DNA of 64,000 nucleotides from a candidate division LCP-89 bacterium B3_LCP (GTDB taxonomy: Bacteria > Electryoneota > B3-LCP): the NCBI GenBank assembly GCA_005223185.1, contig NJBN01000001.1, forward strand, positions 434,001 through 498,000, read 5' to 3'. The notes below the pieces were generated by a model that saw only the letters and a list, made by a program, of their open reading frames with translations, was not told the origin of the DNA and searched no databases. Every line of letters begins with the position of its first letter. Position 1 is the stretch's first letter. Shown here one piece after another: positions 5,038-62,867 of this stretch. The position numbers and the translations under genes were made by a program.

Positions 5038-5176
5038 AATGTAGGGGCAGGTTTTCGCATAGCGGCGGCTTTGCCGCAAACCTGCCCCTATACTATCCCC
5101 GTAGGGTGGCAGTGCTTCTGCCACCCTTTATTTTTATAGTCGGGGTCAGCTTGCCCTTAGCGGTTCCTGACCCCGA
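5038..5176. repeat. Three consecutive palindromes between two cargo genes
   Basis: First: TAGGGGCAGGTTT (5042-5054) pairs perfectly with AAACCTGCCCCTA (5078-5090) and encloses a smaller GCGGC/GCCGC hairpin. Second: GGGTGGCAG (5104-5112) with CTGCCACCC (5118-5126), followed by TTTATTTTTA, a likely rho-independent terminator. Third: TCGGGGTCAG (5140-5149) with CTGACCCCGA (5167-5176). Each type occurs elsewhere in the window, so this spacer is a stack of mobile palindromes. Confidence 0.8.
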
Positions 5177-9290: not shown

Positions 9291-11474
9291 ATGCCCTCAA
9301 TACTTGCACGATTGGTTTTATTACTCATGATTGGCTTATTAGCCATCTTCAGTTGTATAGCCAGCGAATCCATCGCTCAGTCCAACCGAGAAGGTAAGGT
9401 ATCTTCAGCTCCGCGTCAGATATATGCTGATGATAGCTGGCATTTCACCAGCGAAGGGAATCTGGGTTTAACTGTAACCAACTTCGGTGTGTTCGGCCGC
9501 ACGTTTGATGAATCTTATTCTTTACTTAATCAACCTTCGTGCGTTTACAAGCTGAATTCGAGCCTGCCGAAAGAACAGGTTGAACATTTTTCTTACGGAG
9601 GTATATGGATTGGAGGAGTACGAGGCGGTATCACTCACGTGAGCACCGGGATCACCGATGGTTCCTTCTCAGCGGGCGAACCCGGGTTGGAATTTACTAA
9701 TACAGCATCCGAAGCTGACAGCGTGCAGACCCGTTCAAGTATATTGACTTCCCCTCTGTTCGATCCTTCAGCCATTTCTCACCAGGATCTTATTTGCGAT
9801 TACAGCGATACCAACACCGTGCTCCCCGGGACTTTAATACCGATCCCCCAACATGTTCCCTTAGGGATTGGCGTGCATCAGGAGGTTTACTGCTGGAACT
9901 ATTCCTACGCAGATGCTTTTGCCATATTGTCTTTTACCATCACTAATCTCACCAATGAACCGATAGAGGATCTCCATGTGGCGATTTGGCTGGATGCTTC
10001 AGTCGGTAATATGAACTACACTAATTACGAACCCGGCGGGGGTCCTGGAGGTCGCTGGAATTGGTACGATAACCTGAATAATTTCGTACAGAATGACGAG
10101 CAGAAGATCGCTATCTCCTATGACGAAGACAGCGATGACGGCTGGGCTGAGAGCTATTTGGGTGTGACCGTACTTGGCGGTGAATCCAAGGCGGATTCGT
10201 TCGACGTCTATTTCCACCAATGGCCCTGGAATACCTCTTCATCTATGTCGTATCCTCTATGGATCATGCCGATCGACGATGAAGAACGTTACACCAAAAT
10301 GGCAACGCACGGGGAATACGATCAGATTCCAGGTTATGATAATCAGGGGAATCCCACCAATCCCGGAGAAGTCACCGAGAGTTGGATGCTTTTTCTGTCG
10401 TGTGGGCCCTTTGAAACCATCCAGCCGGGTGAATCTGTCGAGGCAATTTTCTCGATTGTGTGCGGCCGCTGGTCTGGCAATTACCCGGACGACGTTCCCG
10501 CCCGGCGCACTGATCTCCTGTTGAATGCCGAATGGGCGCAGACCATTTACAACGGTGAAGACGTCAACGGTAATGGAATCCTAGACCCGGATGAAGACTT
10601 AAACGGCAACGGAATTTTAGACCATTATCTCTTCCCCAAACCGCCACCATCTCCCAGGTTGGAAGTGGTTCCCGGCGATGGTCAAGTAACTTTATACTGG
10701 GATAACAGCGCTGAAGCCGCTGTCGATTCGCTTACAGGGAAGATGGATTTTGAGGGATATAGAGTATATTCATCACCTAAGACACTCGACTTGGGAGAAG
10801 AATATAGTTTACTGGCTCAGTTCGACATTGATTACGACTTAGACCCATTCGATGACGATAGCACGTTGGTAGGATTCAATACCGGTTTTTCCGCCATTGA
10901 ATTGGAAGACTCCGTGTTGATCAACGGCGATTATTACCACTATTCCTTCACCGACAACGGAGTCTTAAACGGCTGGCCCTCCGCGGCTGGAGGGCTATAC
11001 TATGCGGTTACAGCTTACGATAGAGGCAATCCTCAGAACAACCTGCCCAGCCTGGAATCGTCACCCCTGGAAAACCGCATCTACACCTATCCGGGCACGA
11101 CGCCTACGGACGATTCAAGGGTGGGTGTCTATCCTAACCCCTACCGCGTTTCTGCCTCCTGGGATGGACCCGGTCCTACCCAGAGGATGATATGGTTCCA
11201 GTACCTCCCGGCACGAGCGGAGATCCGCATCTTCACCTTGGCTGGCGACCTTGTGGATACCATCGATCACGATGCGGCGACTTACGATGGTGGAGACGTC
11301 GCGCGTATCGGCGGCAGCACTTATGGATCCCAGACCGCTTTTTCCGGCGGCGAACACGCCTGGGATCTCTTAAATTCCAACAATCAGGAAATAGCTACGG
11401 GACTCTACCTGTACACCGTGGAAAATATGGATTCCGGCAGCATCAAAACCGGCACTTTCATGGTGATAAAATAA
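9291..11474 (+). CDS. Secreted protein of unknown function with Ca-binding-like loops and FlgD/T9SS-like C-terminus
   Basis: 727 residues. Start 9291 gives MPSILARLVLLLMIGLLAIF, a clear signal peptide; upstream in-frame starts overlap the promoter. The body is a long beta-rich region. Around residues 420-445 lie two acidic loops, DVNGNGILDPDED and DLNGNGILD, typical of calcium-binding thrombospondin-3-like or dockerin-like repeats. A fibronectin-like stretch follows (GDGQVTLYWDNSAE). The C-terminus (YPNPYR, RIFTLAGDLVDTI, GLYLYTVEN, KTGTFMVIK) is a FlgD-Ig-like variant of the sorting domain, longer than the usual tail. It is the first gene of a co-directional set with an OB-fold cargo, a lipoprotein, a TonB receptor and a PorV-like protein, which suggests a joint surface role. 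No enzymatic motif is visible. Confidence 0.75.
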   Translation: MPSILARLVLLLMIGLLAIFSCIASESIAQSNREGKVSSAPRQIYADDSWHFTSEGNLGLTVTNFGVFGRTFDESYSLLNQPSCVYKLNSSLPKEQVEHFSYGGIWIGGVRGGITHVSTGITDGSFSAGEPGLEFTNTASEADSVQTRSSILTSPLFDPSAISHQDLICDYSDTNTVLPGTLIPIPQHVPLGIGVHQEVYCWNYSYADAFAILSFTITNLTNEPIEDLHVAIWLDASVGNMNYTNYEPGGGPGGRWNWYDNLNNFVQNDEQKIAISYDEDSDDGWAESYLGVTVLGGESKADSFDVYFHQWPWNTSSSMSYPLWIMPIDDEERYTKMATHGEYDQIPGYDNQGNPTNPGEVTESWMLFLSCGPFETIQPGESVEAIFSIVCGRWSGNYPDDVPARRTDLLLNAEWAQTIYNGEDVNGNGILDPDEDLNGNGILDHYLFPKPPPSPRLEVVPGDGQVTLYWDNSAEAAVDSLTGKMDFEGYRVYSSPKTLDLGEEYSLLAQFDIDYDLDPFDDDSTLVGFNTGFSAIELEDSVLINGDYYHYSFTDNGVLNGWPSAAGGLYYAVTAYDRGNPQNNLPSLESSPLENRIYTYPGTTPTDDSRVGVYPNPYRVSASWDGPGPTQRMIWFQYLPARAEIRIFTLAGDLVDTIDHDAATYDGGDVARIGGSTYGSQTAFSGGEHAWDLLNSNNQEIATGLYLYTVENMDSGSIKTGTFMVIK

Positions 11475-37249: not shown

Positions 37250-37288
37250 TTGAGTAGAAAAATATCGTGTAAAGTAGATGGAGTTGAA

Positions 37289-39118
37289 GTGACTGAATCC
37301 TCAAGAAATCGAATAAAACGTTTGTATAAATACATATACATCCTCATATCATTGCTGATATGCATACTATTCCTATTCCAGAAAGATACCCAGGCAGAAG
37401 CAGCACGGATATACATGGACGGTAATTTCAGCGACTGGGAATCAGTAGAACCACTGCATGTTGATCCTGTCGGTGATCAATTAGTTGACAGCCTGGATTT
37501 CGGTACTCTCTGGGTGGCTAATGATGAACGATACCTTTTCCTATGCCTGGAACTGGGAACTGATATACTTCTGCAGGAAGAACACGATTTCGATCTCTAT
37601 CTGGATACGGACAACGACCCATCTACCGGGCAGCCAATCAACGGCATTGGAGCTGATTTCGACTGGAATTTCAATGATGGAGACGGTCACTTTCGCGTAG
37701 GTCCTATTCCCTATCCCGTTGACCATGAAGACTTAAGCTTTGTCACTGCACCCACTGTTTCATCCGATATCTACGAGATTGTAATCGATCGGTACGCAAC
37801 TCCTGTGGGTCAGTATGAACTGTTCACCAGCGATACCATATCCATTCTCTTTCATGATAGCGGCGCCGGGCAGGATTATCTTCCCGATGCGGGAACGACA
37901 TTACAGTATGTATTCGATGATTCTCCTTTGCCTCCATTTCCGGTATCATCGATTCAAAAGCAGGATCCGTCGCATATCCGCGTTCTGTCCTACAACGTAC
38001 ATCTGGATGATTTCTTCGATCCTTACCTTGAAGATGAATACACGCGCATTCTTAATGCTATCGAACCGGATGTAATCGCTTTCCAGGAAATCTACGATCA
38101 CAATGTATTTGAAACAGTTGACCGGGTGACTGCGATGCTGGGTGGGGCATGGTACGGCACCAAGATCAACCCGGACATAATCCTGGTCAGCCGATATACA
38201 TTTGCAGAAACCATTAACATCTACGATGATGGCAACGGAGCTTTCCTCCTCAACCTGCAGCCGGATTACGACTGTCAGATGCTGGTTATAAACGCTCACC
38301 TGCCCGCTGGACAAGCCAATACAAACAGGCAGAATGAAGTTGACGCCATTATGGCCTTCATCCGAGATGCCAAAGAACCCGGTGGAGAATTAGAATTGGA
38401 AGAGAACACCCCAATTCTCATTACCGGAGATATGAATTTCGTGGGTTACGCGCAACAACTGGTAACCATGGTTACCGGGCAGATCTACTTCACGGGCCCG
38501 TTCGGCCCTCCCTTCGATCCCGATTGGGATGGAACCGATTTTACCGATCTGACCCCACGCCATACAGATACGCCCTTCTATTTCACCTGGTATAACGATT
38601 GGAGCTACTATACCCCTGGCCGCTTCGATTTTATGATATACAGCGATTCGGTCCTGGAAGCCTGGAATAACTTCGTCCTGTTCACTCCGGGAATGTCACC
38701 CGATTCCTTAGCCGCCAATGGTCTGCAGGCTGATGACGTTTTAGATGCTTCAGATCACCTCCCCGTCGTCTGCGATTTCGTGCCTAATCCGGAAATGGGT
38801 GTATCTGGCAAGGATGACAGCCACAAACCAGCTGAATACGCTCTGTTACAGAACTTCCCCAACCCCTTCAACCCCACAACAGTTATCAGTTTTTCTATGC
38901 CAGTTTCGAGTTGGGTGAAACTGGATGTGTTCGATATAAACGGACGCAATGTAGGGGCGGGTTTGTCCCGCAGGGACGCCGAAGGCGAAACCCGCCCTTA
39001 TACCCCCGGCACCCACCAAATCACCTTCGATGGATCTGGTCTTCCCTCTGGTATCTACTTCTACCGTCTGACGGCGGATGATTTCACAGCGATAGGTAAG
39101 ATGGTGCTGATCAAGTAA
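37289..39118 (+). CDS. Secreted EEP-family (endonuclease/exonuclease/phosphatase) protein with T9SS domain carrying a palindrome-derived insert
   Basis: 609 residues from a GTG at 37289 with GGAG 5 bases upstream; the N-terminus then gives a signal-type hydrophobic stretch (YIYILISLLICILFLF). Residues ~40-220 are a DOMON/CBM9-like beta-sandwich (IYMDGNFSDWESVEPLHVDP, HDFDLYLDTDNDPSTG). Residues ~235-510 are an EEP nuclease/phosphatase fold with the conserved motifs LSYNVH, FQEI, INAHLPAG, ITGDMNFVG, RFDFMIYSD and SDHLPVV, including the metal-binding Glu and the catalytic Asp/His. It is thus likely a secreted nuclease or phosphoesterase. The sorting domain contains a 51-base in-frame palindrome (38951-39001). 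The DOMON+EEP part is repeated in the 40591 gene. Confidence 0.86.
   Translation: MTESSRNRIKRLYKYIYILISLLICILFLFQKDTQAEAARIYMDGNFSDWESVEPLHVDPVGDQLVDSLDFGTLWVANDERYLFLCLELGTDILLQEEHDFDLYLDTDNDPSTGQPINGIGADFDWNFNDGDGHFRVGPIPYPVDHEDLSFVTAPTVSSDIYEIVIDRYATPVGQYELFTSDTISILFHDSGAGQDYLPDAGTTLQYVFDDSPLPPFPVSSIQKQDPSHIRVLSYNVHLDDFFDPYLEDEYTRILNAIEPDVIAFQEIYDHNVFETVDRVTAMLGGAWYGTKINPDIILVSRYTFAETINIYDDGNGAFLLNLQPDYDCQMLVINAHLPAGQANTNRQNEVDAIMAFIRDAKEPGGELELEENTPILITGDMNFVGYAQQLVTMVTGQIYFTGPFGPPFDPDWDGTDFTDLTPRHTDTPFYFTWYNDWSYYTPGRFDFMIYSDSVLEAWNNFVLFTPGMSPDSLAANGLQADDVLDASDHLPVVCDFVPNPEMGVSGKDDSHKPAEYALLQNFPNPFNPTTVISFSMPVSSWVKLDVFDINGRNVGAGLSRRDAEGETRPYTPGTHQITFDGSGLPSGIYFYRLTADDFTAIGKMVLIK
38951..39001 (+). 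repeat. Cloverleaf palindrome inserted in frame within a T9SS sorting domain
   Basis: Outer stem GGGCGGGTTT (38955-38964) with AAACCCGCCC (38988-38997) encloses two hairpins, GTCCC-GCA-GGGAC (38965-38977) and GCC-GAA-GGC (38978-38986). It is read without stop as VGAGLSRRDAEGETRPY and replaces the usual xLVNGxxxAG segment between the GRxV and GTHQITFD strands. The same architecture lies on the opposite strand relation at 60846-60900. Confidence 0.85.
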
Positions 39119-39185: not shown

Positions 39186-39214
39186 TTGATAAATGAAGTG
39201 TGATTGAGTATATT
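39186..39214 (+). promoter_or_regulatory. Promoter for the 39254 gene
   Basis: TTGATA (39186-39191), 17-bp spacer, TATATT (39209-39214), 40 bases before the start. Confidence 0.6.
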
Positions 39215-39253
39215 CTGGGAAAGAAAGTAGTACCTTCCTGTTTTGAGGTTCTT

Positions 39254-40413
39254 ATGAAAGCTATCTTGCTTAGTCTTCTTCTTTTCACATTAACATTAGC
39301 CGCTCCCGCCCAACCACCTATCCTCTGGTTCCAAACCTTCGGTGGATCCAATTATGATTACGGTAAAAGTGTCCAACAGACAGGCGACGGTGGGTATATC
39401 ATTGGAGGATATACCGAATCCTATGGTGCAGGTTCAAAAGACGTCTATTTAGTCAAAACCCACGCTTTTGGTATAGAGCAGTGGAGTCAAACCTACGGTG
39501 GAAGCTCCGATGATGGTGGCTGGAGTGTTCAGCAGACGAATGACGGAGGATATGTCATAGCGGGCGAGACCAATTCTTTTGGTGCTGGTGGTAGTGATGT
39601 ATATTTAATCAAGACAGACGCTTCTGGGATAGAACAATGGAATCAGACCTACGGTGGAAGCGATTATGAAGAGGGCTTCAGTGTACAGCAAACCTACGAC
39701 GGCGGTTATATTGTTACTGGATATACCCTATCATACGGTGTTGATTATGAAGATGTATATTTAGTCAAGACCAACGCTTCAGGCATACAACAATGGAATC
39801 AGACCTACGGTACAACCATATCTGATTATGGTAGAAACGTACAGCAGACCTCCGACGGTGGTTATATCATAGCGGGATGGACCTTATCTTATGATAGTGA
39901 TGTCTATCTAATTAAAACATCTCCCTCTGGTAATTATCAATGGAGTAAGACTTTCGGTGGGGAAGCGCGTCGGATTGGGGAAACAGTGTTCAGCAGACTT
40001 CTGACGGCGGGTATATCGTTGCGGGGTCGACCACTTCCTACGGCGCTGGAGAAACTGACGTTTGCCTGATCCGCCTGGATGCTGAGGGGACACCTGTAAA
40101 AGATCCAGGCTTCATACAGGATATCCCCAACGATTTCGCTTTGTACGAAGCCCACCCCAACCCCTTCAACCCCACCACAACCATCAACTTCGAGTTACCA
40201 GTCGCCAGTTTAGTGGAACTGGATGTGTTCGACATCTCCGGTTCCCGCGTAGGGGTCGCCTGCCCCTTCGGGGGTCTTGCGCCGACCCGTATCTACACCC
40301 CCGGCACCCACCAGATCACCTTCGATGGATCTGGTCTTCCCTCTGGTATCTACATCTACCGCTTACAAGCTGGCGAGTTTTCAGCGATAGGTAAGATGGT
40401 GCTACTCAAGTAA
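39254..40413 (+). pseudogene. Frameshifted secreted propeller-repeat protein with T9SS domain
   Basis: Start 39254 (MKAILLSLLLFTLTLAAPAQ, signal peptide). Five ~50-residue repeats follow (FGGSNYDYGKSVQQTGDGGY, then YGGSSDDGGWSVQQTNDGGY and so on), as in the 1201 and 60714 genes. Between 39965 and 39970 the frame is lost. Adding one base after GAAGC restores SDWGNSVQQTSDGGYIVAG and leads without stop to the sorting domain (AHPNPFNPTTTINFEL) ending at 40413. Without correction, translation stops at 40069. The tail contains a second-family palindrome (40249-40290). A single-base loss in GCGCG may be a real mutation or an assembly error; the repair is otherwise perfect, which favours a recent event or error. 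Confidence 0.8.
40249..40290 (+). repeat. In-frame palindrome (GTAGGGGTCGCC family) in a sorting domain
   Basis: GGGTCG (40253-40258) pairs with CGACCC (40283-40288); inside, CCCC-TTCG-GGGG (40263-40274) forms a TTCG tetraloop hairpin. Read in frame it encodes VGVACPFGGLAPTR, placed exactly where the 38951 element lies in its own gene. A near-identical copy is at 43771-43812. Confidence 0.8.
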
Positions 40414-40436
40414 TGAACCAGCTTAAAAGTGATTGT

Positions 40437-40470
40437 AGGGGCGGACCTCTGTGTCCGCCCTTTTTTCTTT
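40437..40470 (+). terminator. Hairpin terminator, GTAGGGGCGGAC family
   Basis: GGGCGGAC (40439-40446) pairs with GTCCGCCC (40453-40460) across CTCTGT, followed by TTTTTTCTTT. It ends the 39254 gene. Confidence 0.8.
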
Positions 40471-40527: not shown

Positions 40528-40556
40528 TTGACTAAGCGATTTATTTTTTGTATATT
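40528..40556 (+). promoter_or_regulatory. Promoter for the 40591 gene
   Basis: TTGACT (40528-40533), 17-bp spacer, TATATT (40551-40556), 35 bases before the start. Confidence 0.7.
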
Positions 40557-40590
40557 ATGTCCACACACTTCCATAAGAAAGGATGAGAAA

Positions 40591-43500
40591 ATGAACCGTC
40601 TGATGTTATCTATTTACATACTACTGTTCGGGTTTATTTCTGCCGTTCGTGCAGACACCACATTTGTTGCTTCAGGTCCGGTATCCGGCGCCTGGACTTC
40701 AGCCGGCAACCCTTACTTCGTCTATGAAGGTGATATCGTGGTTCCGGACGGCAGAAGCCTGACCGTTCTGCCCGGTGTTGAGGTGCTGTTCACCGGCAAC
40801 TACAAACTGACTGTAGAAGGATTGCTGAACGCCGAAGGCACTGAAGCAGATTCGATAACTTTCACCAGGGCTTATTCAACCGAAGAATCCAAGTGGCGCG
40901 GTTTCCGCTTCGATGCTGCAGATGATGGCTGTACTCTAAAATACTGCCGCATAGAATACGCCAAAGGCACCGGCCCTTATCCCGATGTGCGCGGTGGAGG
41001 GGTGTGGATCGAAAACTGTTCGGTGCTGATAAGGAATTGTACCATAGCGCATAATTACACGCATAACGAAAACTACAACGGTTCTGGTGGTGGTATCTTC
41101 TTAAATCAGAGTGATCAGAGTATCATCGAATACAACTATATAACCCAAAACCAGGCAGACAATGGCGGCGGTATATGTGTCGGGCAGAATTGCTACACCA
41201 TAATCCGGCATAATACTTTCGATAACAACCAAACCTACTCATCCGGGGGAGGTATATACGTCTCAGCCAACGGAGAATCCGTCATCAATGATAATATATT
41301 CGTGGACAATCACTCCAGCGGCATTTACGGCGGAGGAGCTATAAACCTGTGGAGCGCTACCTGGATATACGGAACGTTTTCCTATGTGTACAACAACCTG
41401 ATAATGAACAATACCGCCTCTTCAGCCGGCGGAGGCATCTATCATCGCTACGAATCTTCGATAGTTTATAATAACACTCTGGTTGGCAATCAGGCCAATC
41501 AGGGAGGTGGAATTTACGTTTTGACTTTTTCCGATCTGCCGCCTACTATTTATAATTCCATAATTTGGGGAAACAATGCCCCGGTGGGCAGCCAGATTTA
41601 TCTCGATCCTCAATCGGGGAGCGTCGCCAATATCAGCTATTGCGACGTACATGCCGGATGGCCAGGTGTGGGAAATATCAATTCCGATCCGGAATTCGTG
41701 TCAGGGTCCGGTGGCGATTACTACTTGAGTCAGATCGCTGCAGGACAGCCTGTGCAGAGTCCCTGTGTGGATGCCAGCGATCCCATTTCAACCATGATAA
41801 CCGGCACTACCAGAACGGACGGCGTCCAGGATGAGGGTATCGTGGATATGGGGTATCATTATGCCATCGAAACGGTTGTCAGTATGAACGTGGTTCTGAC
41901 GCCTTTGAACCCGCCCATCCAGATTCCGGCTATAGGGGGAACTTTCGAATTTGACGTCTTAATCGAAAATCTGGAGTCATCGCCCGTTCTTTGCGATATC
42001 TGGACAGAAGCTATCTTACCCAGTGGACAACCATATCCGCTGATCTTACGGGAAGACGTGAATATCCCTGCAGGGGGCAGTATTGAGAGGACGTTATCTC
42101 AGAACGTACCCGAGAGCGCCCCAGCAGGATCGTACAGCTACCATGCCTATGTCGGTGATCATCCGAACATGGTTTACGCAGAGGACAGCTTTACTTTCGA
42201 GAAGTTGACCGGTTTAGAAGCCACACGGATATACATGGACGGCGATTTCAGCGATTGGGAATCAGTTGAGCCACTGCACATCGACCCGGTTGGTGATCAA
42301 TTGGCCGACAGCCTGGATTTTGGCACCCTCTGGGTGACTAACGATGAACGCTACCTGTTCCTCTGTCTGGAAGTGGGAGCGGAGATGATGATACAGGTGG
42401 AGCATGACTTCGATCTCTACCTGGATACGGATAACGACATCTCCACCGGGCTGTCCATCAACGGAATAGGTGCTGATCTGGATTATAATTTCAACGATGG
42501 AACCGGCAACTTTCTCGCGGGAGGAACTACCTATACTATCTACCATGAAGATCTGGGACTTGCCACCGCACCCACCTACTCATCAAATATCTACGAGATC
42601 GTAATCGACAGGGAAGCCTATCCAGCGGGTCAATATGAACTGTTCACCAGCGATACCATATCCGTTCTCTTCCACGATAGCGGTCCCGGGCAGGATTACC
42701 TTCCCGATGAGGGGACTACTATCCAGTATGTGTTCGATGATTCCCCCTTACCAACACTACCGGTTTTATCGCTTCAGAAGCAAGATCCATCGCATATCCG
42801 CATCATGTCCTACAATGTCTGGACGGATAACCTCTTTGAACCCGACCTTGAAGATGAGTACACGCGCATTCTGAATGCCATCGAACCGGACATAATCGCT
42901 TTCCAGGAAATCTACAATCACAATGCTTCCCAGACAGTTGACCAGGTGACTTCAATGTTAGGAGGACAGTGGTACGGCTACAAGATCAATCCCGACATAG
43001 TCCTGGTCAGCCGATATGAAATAGCGGAGACATTCAACGTCAACAATGACGGCAACGGAGCATTCCTCCTCGATCTGCAGCCTGACTACGACTGCCAGAT
43101 GCTGGTTATAAATGCCCATTTGCCAGCAGGACAATCCAATACTGGCAGGCAGCATGAAGTTGACGCCATAATGGAATTCATCCGGGAAGCCAGAGAACCC
43201 GGCGGTGAACTGGAGCTGGAAGTGAACACCCCTATCCTGATCACAGGTGATATGAATTTCGTGGGTTATTATCAGCAGTTGTTTACCATGGTTACAGGTC
43301 AGATCTACTACACAGGTACGTATGGACCGCCGTTTGAACCTGACTGGGACGGCACCAATCTTACCGATCTGATTCCACGTCATACTGATACTCCCTTCTA
43401 TTTCACCTGGTATAATGAATCGAGTTACTACTGCCCCGGCCGCCTGGATTTCATGATATACAGCGATTCCGTGCTGGAAGCCTGGAACAATTTTGTCCTC

Positions 43501-43935
43501 TTCACGCCGGGAATGTCACCCGATTCCTTAGCTGCCAACGGCCTGCAATGGGATGACGTTGTAAATGCTTCTGACCATTTACCCGTAGTAGGTGATTTTG
43601 TACCCAATCCGGGCACAGTCTTGGCGGGAAATTATAACAGCCAGCAACCAGCCCGGTTCGCACTATTACAGAACTATCCCAATCCGTTTAATGCATCAAC
43701 AACAATCAGTTTCCAGTTGCCAGTTTCGAGTCTGGTAGAACTGGATGTCTTTGACATCTCCGGTTCCCGCGTAGGGGTCGCCTGCCCCTTCGGGGGTCTT
43801 GCGCCGACCCGTCAATATTCACCCGGCACCCATCAAATCACTTTCGATGCATCGGGATTAGCATCTGGTATATACCTTTACCGACTGCAGGCTGGCGAGT
43901 TTTCCGCGATAGGGAAGATGGTGCTGGTGAAGTAA
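40591..43935 (+). CDS. Secreted beta-helix plus EEP nuclease/phosphatase protein with T9SS domain
   Basis: 1114 residues from 40591 (MNRLMLSIYILLFGFISAVRA, signal peptide; AAAGGATGAG upstream). Residues ~25-430 are a right-handed beta-helix (NCTIAHN, NNTFDNNQ-type turns, NNTLVGNQANQGGGIYV). A short beta-sandwich follows (VVLTPLNPPIQIPAIGG). From ~540 the protein repeats the DOMON-like and EEP domains of the 37289 gene (IYMDGDFSDWESVEPLHIDP, MSYNVW, FQEI, NAHLPAG, TGDMNFVG, RLDFMIYSD, SDHLPVV), so the active-site residues are kept. It ends in a sorting domain with an in-frame palindrome at 43771-43812. The beta-helix may bind a polymer that the EEP domain cleaves; that is inference. Confidence 0.86.
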   Translation: MNRLMLSIYILLFGFISAVRADTTFVASGPVSGAWTSAGNPYFVYEGDIVVPDGRSLTVLPGVEVLFTGNYKLTVEGLLNAEGTEADSITFTRAYSTEESKWRGFRFDAADDGCTLKYCRIEYAKGTGPYPDVRGGGVWIENCSVLIRNCTIAHNYTHNENYNGSGGGIFLNQSDQSIIEYNYITQNQADNGGGICVGQNCYTIIRHNTFDNNQTYSSGGGIYVSANGESVINDNIFVDNHSSGIYGGGAINLWSATWIYGTFSYVYNNLIMNNTASSAGGGIYHRYESSIVYNNTLVGNQANQGGGIYVLTFSDLPPTIYNSIIWGNNAPVGSQIYLDPQSGSVANISYCDVHAGWPGVGNINSDPEFVSGSGGDYYLSQIAAGQPVQSPCVDASDPISTMITGTTRTDGVQDEGIVDMGYHYAIETVVSMNVVLTPLNPPIQIPAIGGTFEFDVLIENLESSPVLCDIWTEAILPSGQPYPLILREDVNIPAGGSIERTLSQNVPESAPAGSYSYHAYVGDHPNMVYAEDSFTFEKLTGLEATRIYMDGDFSDWESVEPLHIDPVGDQLADSLDFGTLWVTNDERYLFLCLEVGAEMMIQVEHDFDLYLDTDNDISTGLSINGIGADLDYNFNDGTGNFLAGGTTYTIYHEDLGLATAPTYSSNIYEIVIDREAYPAGQYELFTSDTISVLFHDSGPGQDYLPDEGTTIQYVFDDSPLPTLPVLSLQKQDPSHIRIMSYNVWTDNLFEPDLEDEYTRILNAIEPDIIAFQEIYNHNASQTVDQVTSMLGGQWYGYKINPDIVLVSRYEIAETFNVNNDGNGAFLLDLQPDYDCQMLVINAHLPAGQSNTGRQHEVDAIMEFIREAREPGGELELEVNTPILITGDMNFVGYYQQLFTMVTGQIYYTGTYGPPFEPDWDGTNLTDLIPRHTDTPFYFTWYNESSYYCPGRLDFMIYSDSVLEAWNNFVLFTPGMSPDSLAANGLQWDDVVNASDHLPVVGDFVPNPGTVLAGNYNSQQPARFALLQNYPNPFNASTTISFQLPVSSLVELDVFDISGSRVGVACPFGGLAPTRQYSPGTHQITFDASGLASGIYLYRLQAGEFSAIGKMVLVK
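43771..43812 (+). repeat. In-frame palindrome (GTAGGGGTCGCC family) in a sorting domain
   Basis: Copy of the 40249-40290 element, encoding the same VGVACPFGGLAPTR and sitting at the same position of the sorting domain of the 40591 gene. Confidence 0.8.
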
Positions 43936-45098: not shown

Positions 45099-45148
45099 CG
45101 CACTGTGTGCGTCATCCTGAACGTAGTGAAGGATCTCATTTCAATTGT

Positions 45149-45181
45149 AGGGGCAGACCTCTGTGTCTGCCCTTTTTGTTT
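45149..45181 (+). terminator. Hairpin terminator with compensated stem
   Basis: GGGCAGAC (45151-45158) pairs with GTCTGCCC (45165-45172) across the same CTCTGT loop as the 40437 copy, then TTTTTGTTT. Relative to GGGCGGAC/GTCCGCCC, one G-C pair is replaced by A-T on both arms. Confidence 0.75.
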
Positions 45182-60713: not shown

Positions 60714-62612
60714 TTATTTCAGCAGCACCATCTTCCCTGATGCCGTATATTCCTCAGCCGTCAGGCGATAGATGTAGATGCCGGAAGACAGGTTCGATCC
60801 ATCGAAGGTGATTTGGTGGGTGCCGGGAGGATGCCATGCGCCCTGTGTAGGGGCGGGTTTACCCTTATAAAGGGTGCCTTCGGCAAAACCCGCCCCTACA
60901 TTGCGCCCGTTGATGTCGAACACATCAAGTTTCACTAAACTCGCAACTGGCAGGGAGAAGCTGATGGTTGTGGTGGGGTTGAAGGGGTTGGGGTAGGCGC
61001 CGTTCAGGGTAAACTCATTTATGGTAAAATCTGTAAATTTATTGAGATACTCATCAGGTAGTTTATCCCACCCCGTCAATATCCAGTTCGATACTGTGTG
61101 AGAATCTGATGAACCTGGCAGTTTCTCAAAGGGAAAATGATCCTCAGCTAAGAGCTCGATGGTATTATGGTCATAGATGTAAGCATTGTAAACATAGTCT
61201 CCAGCAAGCGCATAGCCGGGGACGTTCTGGGCAATACTATCCCGCTGGATGACAGACCCTGGGACTAAATTAATCCCCTGGCGATTGAAAACCTGATAGA
61301 TAGCACCGCTCGGCAAAGTAATATCGTTCCGAATATCAACAATGTAGGTAATACTATCATTATTGGCAATTTCAATATCGTAGGTAAACGAACCGCCCGC
61401 TGCAGGAATCTGAATCGGAGGATTATGGGGATTAAGTACAACTGATATGTACTGTTGTTCAGGTTCAAGGCATATCATCAGGAAGTCTGCTATTCCAGCG
61501 CCAAGCGTATTTGTCCATCCAGCAATAAAATAACCTTCGTTATTCGTTTGATCAACCGCATATCCGACACTACTGTATCCACATGCAAACATTTTATGCC
61601 ATTCTTCACTGCCGGAGGCATCTGTCTTTAATAAATAGACTCCTGGAGGCGAATAAGAAAGCGAATACCCCGTCACTATGAATCCGTTATCGGACGTAAG
61701 ATCAACGCTATGACCTTCTTCAGCTGAAGTTCCCCCGTACGTTTGTGTCCATGTTGGGTTCCCATCAGCATCGGTCCTCAGCAAACACACATCGTACATG
61801 CCTGCCCCGGATGAATTGGTCGCGCCGGTGATAATATAACCTCCATCAGGCGTTTGCATAACGTCATGTCCAACGTCTGACCCACTGCCGCCATAAGTCC
61901 TCGACCATTGTTCAATACCAAAAGCATCGGTTTTTATCAAATACATATCATAAAACGAGGAAGACATTGAAAAGGAATTGGTGCAGCCGGCGATAACGAA
62001 ACCATCGTCTGAGGTTTGTCTAATACTGAATCCCTCATCACAATTGGAACCACCGAAAGTCCTCTCCCACTGTGTAATACCGTTGCTGTCAGTTCTAATG
62101 ATAAAAATACTCTCTTCGCCGGGACCATATGACCAGGTTTCAGCAACAAGAATATATCCGTTATCACTGGTTTGTATTACGTCATTACCAGCGTCTCTGC
62201 CTGTACCACCGTATGCTTCAGACCATTCTTCGTTTCCGTTTTCATCAGTTTTTATCAAATAAATATCGCAATCTCCCGGTCCGAATGAGAAGGTGTCACC
62301 AATGATGATATATCCACCATCTGTGGTCTGTATTATACCAGTTCCGCTTTCATATGAAAACCCACCGAAAGTTTTTGTCCAGACGGTGTCACCATTGGCA
62401 TCAACTTTCACAAGATATACATCAGCAGAACCATTACCGAAAGACGCTGTTTGTCCCACAGTAATAAAACCACCGTCCGTTGTCTGCTGCCCATCGAAGC
62501 AGAAGTCACTTTCAATCCCTCCACAGGTTTGAATCCATTGGGTATTTGGCTGAGCATTAATTGAGAAAGCGAGAATAAAAATCGCTAACAAAGAAGTATG
62601 AAATCTATGCAT
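60714..62612 (-). CDS. Secreted propeller-repeat protein with T9SS domain carrying a palindrome-derived insert
   Basis: 632 residues. Start 62612 has AGGAGG on the minus strand just upstream and gives MHRFHTSLLAIFILAFSINA, a signal peptide; an in-frame upstream ATG at 62654 lacks such a site. Residues ~25-390 hold about seven ~50-residue repeats (FGGFSYESGTGIIQTTDGGY, DIYLIKTDENGNEEW), the family of the 1201 and 39254 genes, probably a beta-propeller. Residues ~390-510 form a beta-sandwich (VVLNPHNPPIQIPAAGG) also found in the 40591 gene. The sorting domain (YPNPFNPTTTISFSLPVASL) includes a 55-base palindrome (60846-60900) read as VGAGFAEGTLYKGKPAPT. No catalytic motif; a binding or surface role is likely. 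Confidence 0.86.
   Translation of the reverse strand: MHRFHTSLLAIFILAFSINAQPNTQWIQTCGGIESDFCFDGQQTTDGGFITVGQTASFGNGSADVYLVKVDANGDTVWTKTFGGFSYESGTGIIQTTDGGYIIIGDTFSFGPGDCDIYLIKTDENGNEEWSEAYGGTGRDAGNDVIQTSDNGYILVAETWSYGPGEESIFIIRTDSNGITQWERTFGGSNCDEGFSIRQTSDDGFVIAGCTNSFSMSSSFYDMYLIKTDAFGIEQWSRTYGGSGSDVGHDVMQTPDGGYIITGATNSSGAGMYDVCLLRTDADGNPTWTQTYGGTSAEEGHSVDLTSDNGFIVTGYSLSYSPPGVYLLKTDASGSEEWHKMFACGYSSVGYAVDQTNNEGYFIAGWTNTLGAGIADFLMICLEPEQQYISVVLNPHNPPIQIPAAGGSFTYDIEIANNDSITYIVDIRNDITLPSGAIYQVFNRQGINLVPGSVIQRDSIAQNVPGYALAGDYVYNAYIYDHNTIELLAEDHFPFEKLPGSSDSHTVSNWILTGWDKLPDEYLNKFTDFTINEFTLNGAYPNPFNPTTTISFSLPVASLVKLDVFDINGRNVGAGFAEGTLYKGKPAPTQGAWHPPGTHQITFDGSNLSSGIYIYRLTAEEYTASGKMVLLK
60846..60900 (-). 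repeat. Cloverleaf palindrome in frame within a T9SS sorting domain
   Basis: A perfect 15-bp outer stem, TGTAGGGGCGGGTTT (60846-60860) with AAACCCGCCCCTACA (60886-60900), encloses ACCCTT-ATA-AAGGGT (60861-60875) and GCC-TTC-GGC (60876-60884). It has the same three-helix plan as 38951-39001 but a different first inner stem. Confidence 0.88.
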
Positions 62613-62867
62613 GATAGCACCTCCTAAACTTATTAATTGCATAACGAATGTCACTAAGTTGTTGACTCGTGTGCTGTAGGATATATTATCTCAAATTCTG
62701 TGCCGTATAATTTAATCGACACAACTTTCCTGGTGTAATTATTTCCGCCTATAGTCAGGGATAAGAGAATTATCCCACTGAGTAGGTTTCCTGTTGTGTC
62801 AGGCTTTGCCTTCGAAGTCTTGACCTGCTCCAGCGGGATGAAGCCTGCCCTCAACCGAATTACCTCT

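Follow-up and report, generated by a model that had tools for sequence, protein, structure and literature searches.

The described elements that most resemble the palindrome studied here are the GTAG REPs, which combine a GTAG tag with a palindrome of 20–50 nt, exist as many families per genome, form head-to-head dimers, flank RAYT genes and include some copies read in frame within genes, these intragenic copies being accepted as REPs (Di Nocera et al. 2013, PMC3733652). Their intragenic copies are scattered over unrelated genes, among them many for DNA replication and repair, and share a site only in recB of two Xanthomonas species. In REPtrons, genes for HuH Y1 transposases (RAYT, TnpA_REP) lie between inverted REPs (PMC2817692, PMC8266576). 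The RPEs of Rickettsia are also in-frame palindromes in genes that are probably still functional; in the account given of them in PMC3733652 (after Ogata et al.), RPEs strike many unrelated proteins, and RPE-4 and RPE-6 are CGTC-type REPs. RPEs had been offered as the precedent for our palindrome in a preliminary description. The parallel of in-frame insertion stands, but the elements here are of the GTAG type, occur in a genome with RAYTs and are read in one secretion-signal domain, and intragenic GTAG REPs are the closer precedent.

We analysed a window of 64,000 nucleotides from the candidate division LCP-89 bacterium B3_LCP (contig NJBN01000001.1, positions 434,001 to 498,000), where such a palindrome, hereafter type A, is read in frame in a gene for a 622-aa secreted endonuclease/exonuclease/phosphatase (EEP) protein with a C-terminal T9SS sorting domain (Table 1). 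The host gene matched Exo_endo_phos (PF03372) above cut-off and, with the insert present, its tail scored 31.3 bits against PF18962 (Por_Secre_tail, cut-off 27) and 29.4 bits against TIGR04183 (cut-off 23). The tail is thus like the standard T9SS type A sorting domain (TIGR04183 / PF18962) in its C-terminal position, conserved motifs and passing of curated cut-offs, and SprA, the component of the T9SS machinery that we searched for, is present in the genome (TIGR04189, 819 bits over the frame, C16:154174-160248). In contrast to the standard domain, the first turn is replaced or lengthened by REP-encoded peptides.

The type-A element reads GTAG-GGGCGGGTTT-G-TCCC.GCA.GGGA-CGCC.GAA.GGCG-AAACCCGCCC. 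As single-stranded DNA it is predicted to fold into a cloverleaf of one outer stem and two hairpins, at −17.8 kcal/mol compared with −9.3 kcal/mol for dinucleotide shuffles (z = −4.0). The position, the frame, the 10-bp outer stem with two inner hairpins and the reading within the sorting domain of the EEP gene were all as first described. The proposal that the insert lies in a loop between beta-strands agrees with an AlphaFold model of the sorting domain (mean pLDDT 81, insert block 51-60 at 78), in which it would run from the end of strand 47-52 into the turn before strand 67-74; the model had a weak Foldseek match to the T9SS C-terminal domain of mirolase (8qb1, E 1.5e-3). An Rfam search of the whole window returned zero matches.

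Table 1. Coordinates of sorting-domain genes and of the REPs that they carry (window positions unless a locus is named).
Feature	Position	Strand	Remarks
Host gene	37250..39118	+	ORF with PF03372 and PF18962/TIGR04183 over cut-off; start codon uncertain
T9SS sorting domain of host gene	38858..39118	+	PNPFNP...GKMVLIK; insert in turn between predicted strands
Type-A GTAG REP	38951..38997	+	In frame, first loop of sorting domain; translates as V-GAGLSRRDAEGETRP-Y
Type-A tag GTAG	38951-38954	+	
Type-A outer stem	38955-38964 / 38988-38997	+	
Type-A inner hairpins	38966-38976 and 38977-38987	+	
Type-D GTAG REP	40249..40288	+	Same loop of next sorting domain; peptide VGVACPFGGLAPTR
Tandem paralogue of host gene	40528..43935	+	Sorting domain with type D instead of A
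Type-D GTAG REP	43771..43810	+	Sorting-domain loop of EEP paralogue
Gene with C-terminal sorting domain (open frame)	60714..62690	-	Carries type-B REP
Type-B GTAG REP	60846..60900	-	Cloverleaf, in frame at same loop
Last-loop type-F REPs	L154:8464-8521 and 10190-10247; L236:2180-2206; L263:2000-2026; L269:2015-2041		Loop before GKMVL

Our sampling of the genome, which combined targeted stretches with 20 fixed-position stretches (400 kb) and with pattern searches, revealed at least ten families of GTAG-tagged REPs. In the window and the fixed-position stretches (464 kb), GTAG ranked first, per occurrence, among all 256 tetranucleotides preceding GC-rich hairpins. The palindrome, a short GC-rich one adjoining an unpaired GTAG tag, is a REP-type element with the signature of GTAG REPs (PMC3733652). 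Copy numbers were 42 for type C, 43 for F, 12 for E, 3 for B and 2 for A, the five A and B copies making up a low-copy group.

Several families are physically linked to transposase genes. Two inverted type-C REPs (C18:282924/283448) enclose a RAYT gene (C18:283068; NF047646, 96.5 bits, cut-off 80), two inverted type-F REPs (C18:285018/285410) enclose a second Y1_Tnp gene, and type-M REPs lie beside a third RAYT. As in described REPtrons, transposase genes thus lie between inverted REPs, here of types C and F. Unlike them, this genome combines several RAYTs with at least ten REP families and has a type-B REP within a RAYT frame.

Two side observations also concern RAYT genes. Another RAYT gene (NF047646, 104 bits; L018, G000:C4:172793) is bordered on either side by a third REP family (GTAGCGCGGGGGCTTGCCCCCGC). 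A fourth RAYT reading frame (L010:1287-1919, minus strand) holds the type-B cloverleaf REP in frame (G000:C14:126364-126413) and reads ..DTEINDEI-NVGAGFAEGTLKGKPAPTRHH-PLSEIIRALKTF.. around it, so this transposase gene itself bears the kind of element that a RAYT may handle. We found no RAYT flanked by type-A REPs. Both type-A copies, that of the window and a second at C7:162306, lie in sorting domains, so that this type may equally well have spread by gene duplication or conversion as by transposition.

How widely is the loop occupied? A first-look count gave 334 candidate sorting domains in the genome, of which 150 were scored, and a loop survey covered 104, long ones preferred. In this sample about 46 loops were occupied by palindromes, which belong to at least ten types, may point either way, stand singly or as dimers (E+F, E+C, I+I2) and are always in frame. 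Loop REPs start at the Val of GRxV or shortly after it, most of them filling the turn that follows GRxV, where at least 11 loop states recur. The resulting loops span about 9–26 residues, compared with 11 in most empty domains. In stretches unselected for sorting domains (the window and the 20 fixed-position stretches), 6 of 26 domains carried a REP. The element had been described as a single insertion in one gene; instead, it is one of at least ten REP families found in dozens of paralogous domains and in six genera.

We also noted a second REP-accepting site, the last loop before GKMVL, where type F encodes the peptide SGSGATPT, also in domains whose first loop is empty. Within the window, the gene rich in repeats that separates the EEP genes (39255-40413) shows an apparent frameshift near 39960, its N-terminal part lying in ORF 39200-40069 and its sorting domain in frame 39949-40413. 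Another REP family (GTAGGGGCGGACCTNTGTGTCCGCCC) occurs at 40435-40462 and 45147-45174, directly past the stop codons of sorting-domain genes. These copies continue into a T tract, as do several further copies elsewhere, and so resemble ready-made intrinsic terminators.

Inside and outside genes, the families are distributed unevenly. Type C is evenly split (22 of 42 copies in sorting-domain loops, 20 outside genes), types A (2/2), B (2/3) and E (10/12) lie mostly or wholly in sorting domains, and most type-F copies are extragenic, with at least 14 of 43 in sorting domains. According to the preliminary description the palindrome otherwise lives between genes. Further copies do exist, but each of the five exact GGGCGGGTTT..AAACCCGCCC elements in the genome is read in frame within a gene: four belong to sorting domains and the fifth, the remaining type B, to the RAYT frame. 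The type-B element of the window (60847-60899, perfect 15-bp outer stem, fold z = −6.6), of a type previously taken as intergenic, is one of these four and lies on the minus strand. Intergenic relatives of the type-A/B element are limited to the GGGCAGGTTT cousins at positions 5041 and 8937.

Sorting domains hold 50 of the 51 intragenic copies of the five counted families (A, B, C, E and F), which is far from random because these domains make up only about 2.5% of the coding DNA. Selection against insertions elsewhere would produce such a bias. For these five families we found no convincing copy in genes other than those of sorting-domain proteins and the RAYT; open frames covering some of the outside copies are short or end upstream of likely starts and are probably not genes. 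Compared with the GTAG REPs of PMC3733652, then, nearly all intragenic copies of five families occupy one type of domain, most of them one homologous loop, and types are exchanged. In-frame repeats are already known. What appears to be new is that many REP families have come to use the same loop of a protein time and again, and, in keeping with the initial claim of novelty, we found no prior account of REPs or in-frame palindromes in T9SS domains in the open-access literature searched.

How did so many REP families come to share one loop? In known T9SS proteins the tail serves only in export and is usually cleaved off afterwards. For this reason REPs may be tolerated in a turn that lies at the edge of its small beta-sandwich, with a near-neutral effect on the protein. 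The best reading, and in our view a probable one, is that REPs mobilised by RAYTs entered this tolerant beta-turn, that the subfamily expanded and that REPs were then swapped. The REPs are non-autonomous palindromes of the sort handled by RAYT (TnpA_REP) HuH transposases, which would be the inserting agents. Several families would have inserted in frame into the turn after GRxV of one sorting-domain subfamily; this REP-bearing subfamily would then have multiplied along with its host genes, and the loop REP would have been replaced repeatedly by REPs of other families. Swapping may have proceeded by insertion of a second REP beside the first, loss of one of the two and recombination between paralogous domains.

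Recombination could also have acted without continued mobility: one or a few ancient REP insertions in an ancestral sorting domain would have been spread, and their types exchanged, by nothing but duplication and gene conversion among hundreds of paralogous domains, the RAYTs being at present idle with respect to the loops. The history of the loop bears directly on this alternative. On a tree of flanking DNA, REP presence is nearly clade-like (about 5 changes against a shuffled mean of 33), and REP type requires about 25 changes among the 46 domains with a REP (against a shuffled mean of 28.8 and a possible minimum of 10). These counts are to be read as indicative, because the short tree of 183 columns has weak support and would be distorted by recombination, which is likely. 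The distances of 5' and 3' flanks are barely correlated (r about 0.08), as much recombination predicts, and tandem clusters can be uniform in type, as in the six copies at C16:92-109 kb, all of type C. In pairs of the same type, REP cores are 2–13% diverged compared with 22–31% for the flanks, and nearest neighbours share their type above chance (19 of 46, against 6.6 expected). Simple vertical inheritance of type was rejected, as mean flank distance hardly separates same-type from different-type pairs.

Other features are difficult to derive from recombination only. The loop shows at least 11 states, both orientations and dimers, and extragenic and RAYT-associated copies of types C and F exist as well, which requires many separate entries of REPs from elsewhere. 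The ends of loop elements equal those of extragenic copies, with CGC before GTAG and G after. In the tandem cluster at C7:155-162 kb, where flanks are close, neighbours carry G, G, E+F, F and A, and the domains at C7:158 kb (E+F) and C7:160 kb (F) form a near-clean filled/empty pair that differs by one 24-nt E element and a few adjacent bases. Two neighbours at C7:12-15 kb have type E within an otherwise native loop that keeps its NGWRDAG part. In their catalytic regions the EEP paralogues of the window share 80% identity, and their loop REPs are A and D. These filled/empty comparisons are between paralogues rather than cross-genus orthologues. Few changes of presence beside many changes of type on the flank tree indicate REP cassettes that turn over at a fixed loop site. 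We regard recombination only as possible, though not the likely history.

Alternatively, insertion may be directed to its target: the Val-Ala codons of GRxVA (GTAGC) mimic the tag and could form a preferred RAYT target or a guide-paired site. In 55 of 79 occupied loops the conserved Val codon opens an exact GTAGGGG, and in empty domains GTAG belongs to the most frequent tetranucleotides at this position (9 of 56). However, the same alignment is predicted by selection for Val in the strand, and REPs in reverse orientation occupy the same place with no GTAG at the Val codon. GTAG contributes to the choice of cleavage site in one studied REPtron, but the known cleavage site of TnpA_REP is CT and not GTAG (PMC8266576). 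With tandem copies counted once, and assuming an intergenic share of 8–15% and 334 sorting domains, the density of type C in loops is 20–40 times that in intergenic DNA. This excess goes beyond mere tolerance and fits domain amplification, REP-to-REP replacement or targeting alike. Taken together, we consider target-directed insertion unlikely. There is also only a small chance of an active and repeated delivery of REPs to the GRxV turn, whether RAYTs choose it as a target or one REP replaces another there; the turn would then be a standing site of cassette exchange at which secretion tails are diversified or shuffled throughout the family.

Could the hairpins instead be selected for a job in mRNA or DNA, such as protection of mRNA 3' ends or gyrase binding in genes for secreted proteins, with coding secondary? 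REPs elsewhere lie mostly near the 3' ends of genes (PMC3733652), and the loop is about 40–60 codons before the stop. Stem pairing of type C is maintained in coding copies (164 of 168 cells) as it is outside (157 of 160), and mismatches to consensus are 0.43 in sorting domains against 1.0 in outside copies. Covariation between G-C and A-T on both sides of the stem even alters two amino acids (VGVGLAPTR to VGVDLASTR). Both stem variants are existing extragenic subfamilies, so the covariation may be inherited; it speaks for a shared origin or a shared constraint and does not require selection within the gene. Moreover, translating ribosomes would unfold a coding hairpin, and most of the sorting-domain genes in the window and fixed-position stretches lack a loop REP altogether. 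A role of this kind thus seems distinctly improbable.

The same loop is occupied by REPs in all five sister genera searched, six genera of the family in all. Some families are shared (C, E, F, H) and others are private. Where relatives have the loop peptides in common, the palindromic DNA that encodes them is the same too, contrary to what an ordinary protein loop would show. A strict pattern search of 39 genomes of the phylum was positive in four, all of this family, with zero control hits. In G004, a genome of a sister genus, seven sorting domains (L208, L212, L216, L220, L223, L225, L227) bear the perfect palindrome GTAGGGGTTCAACATGTTGAACCCCTAC at this loop, which is absent from the loops sampled in the window's own genome. 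The same genome holds the one relative of the EEP catalytic part that we found in the sister genera (57% identity). A chance palindrome or ordinary variable loop can practically be dismissed: loops connecting beta-strands do differ in length in many domains, but identical DNA recurs outside genes and beside RAYTs, and a GC-rich 7-bp stem or GTAGG start was found in 34 of 104 domains here and in 0 of 107 from other lineages, the pattern controls being zero.

Insertion of mobilised REPs into a tolerant turn, followed by expansion and swapping, therefore remains our preferred reading. The dissemination of REPs is an open problem because copies usually lie in unalignable intergenic DNA and, to our knowledge, no integration event has ever been directly seen. 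Here, a single homologous coding site carries REPs in dozens of instances per genome, drawn from about ten families. With aligned flanks, a reading frame and empty paralogues, these instances document in nature how REPs are gained, form dimers and are replaced, and they allow the ends of the elements and the rules of insertion to be deduced. For the secretion system, the loop shows that a T9SS signal tolerates strong variation in one turn, which helps to show the parts of the tail that are read by the translocon.
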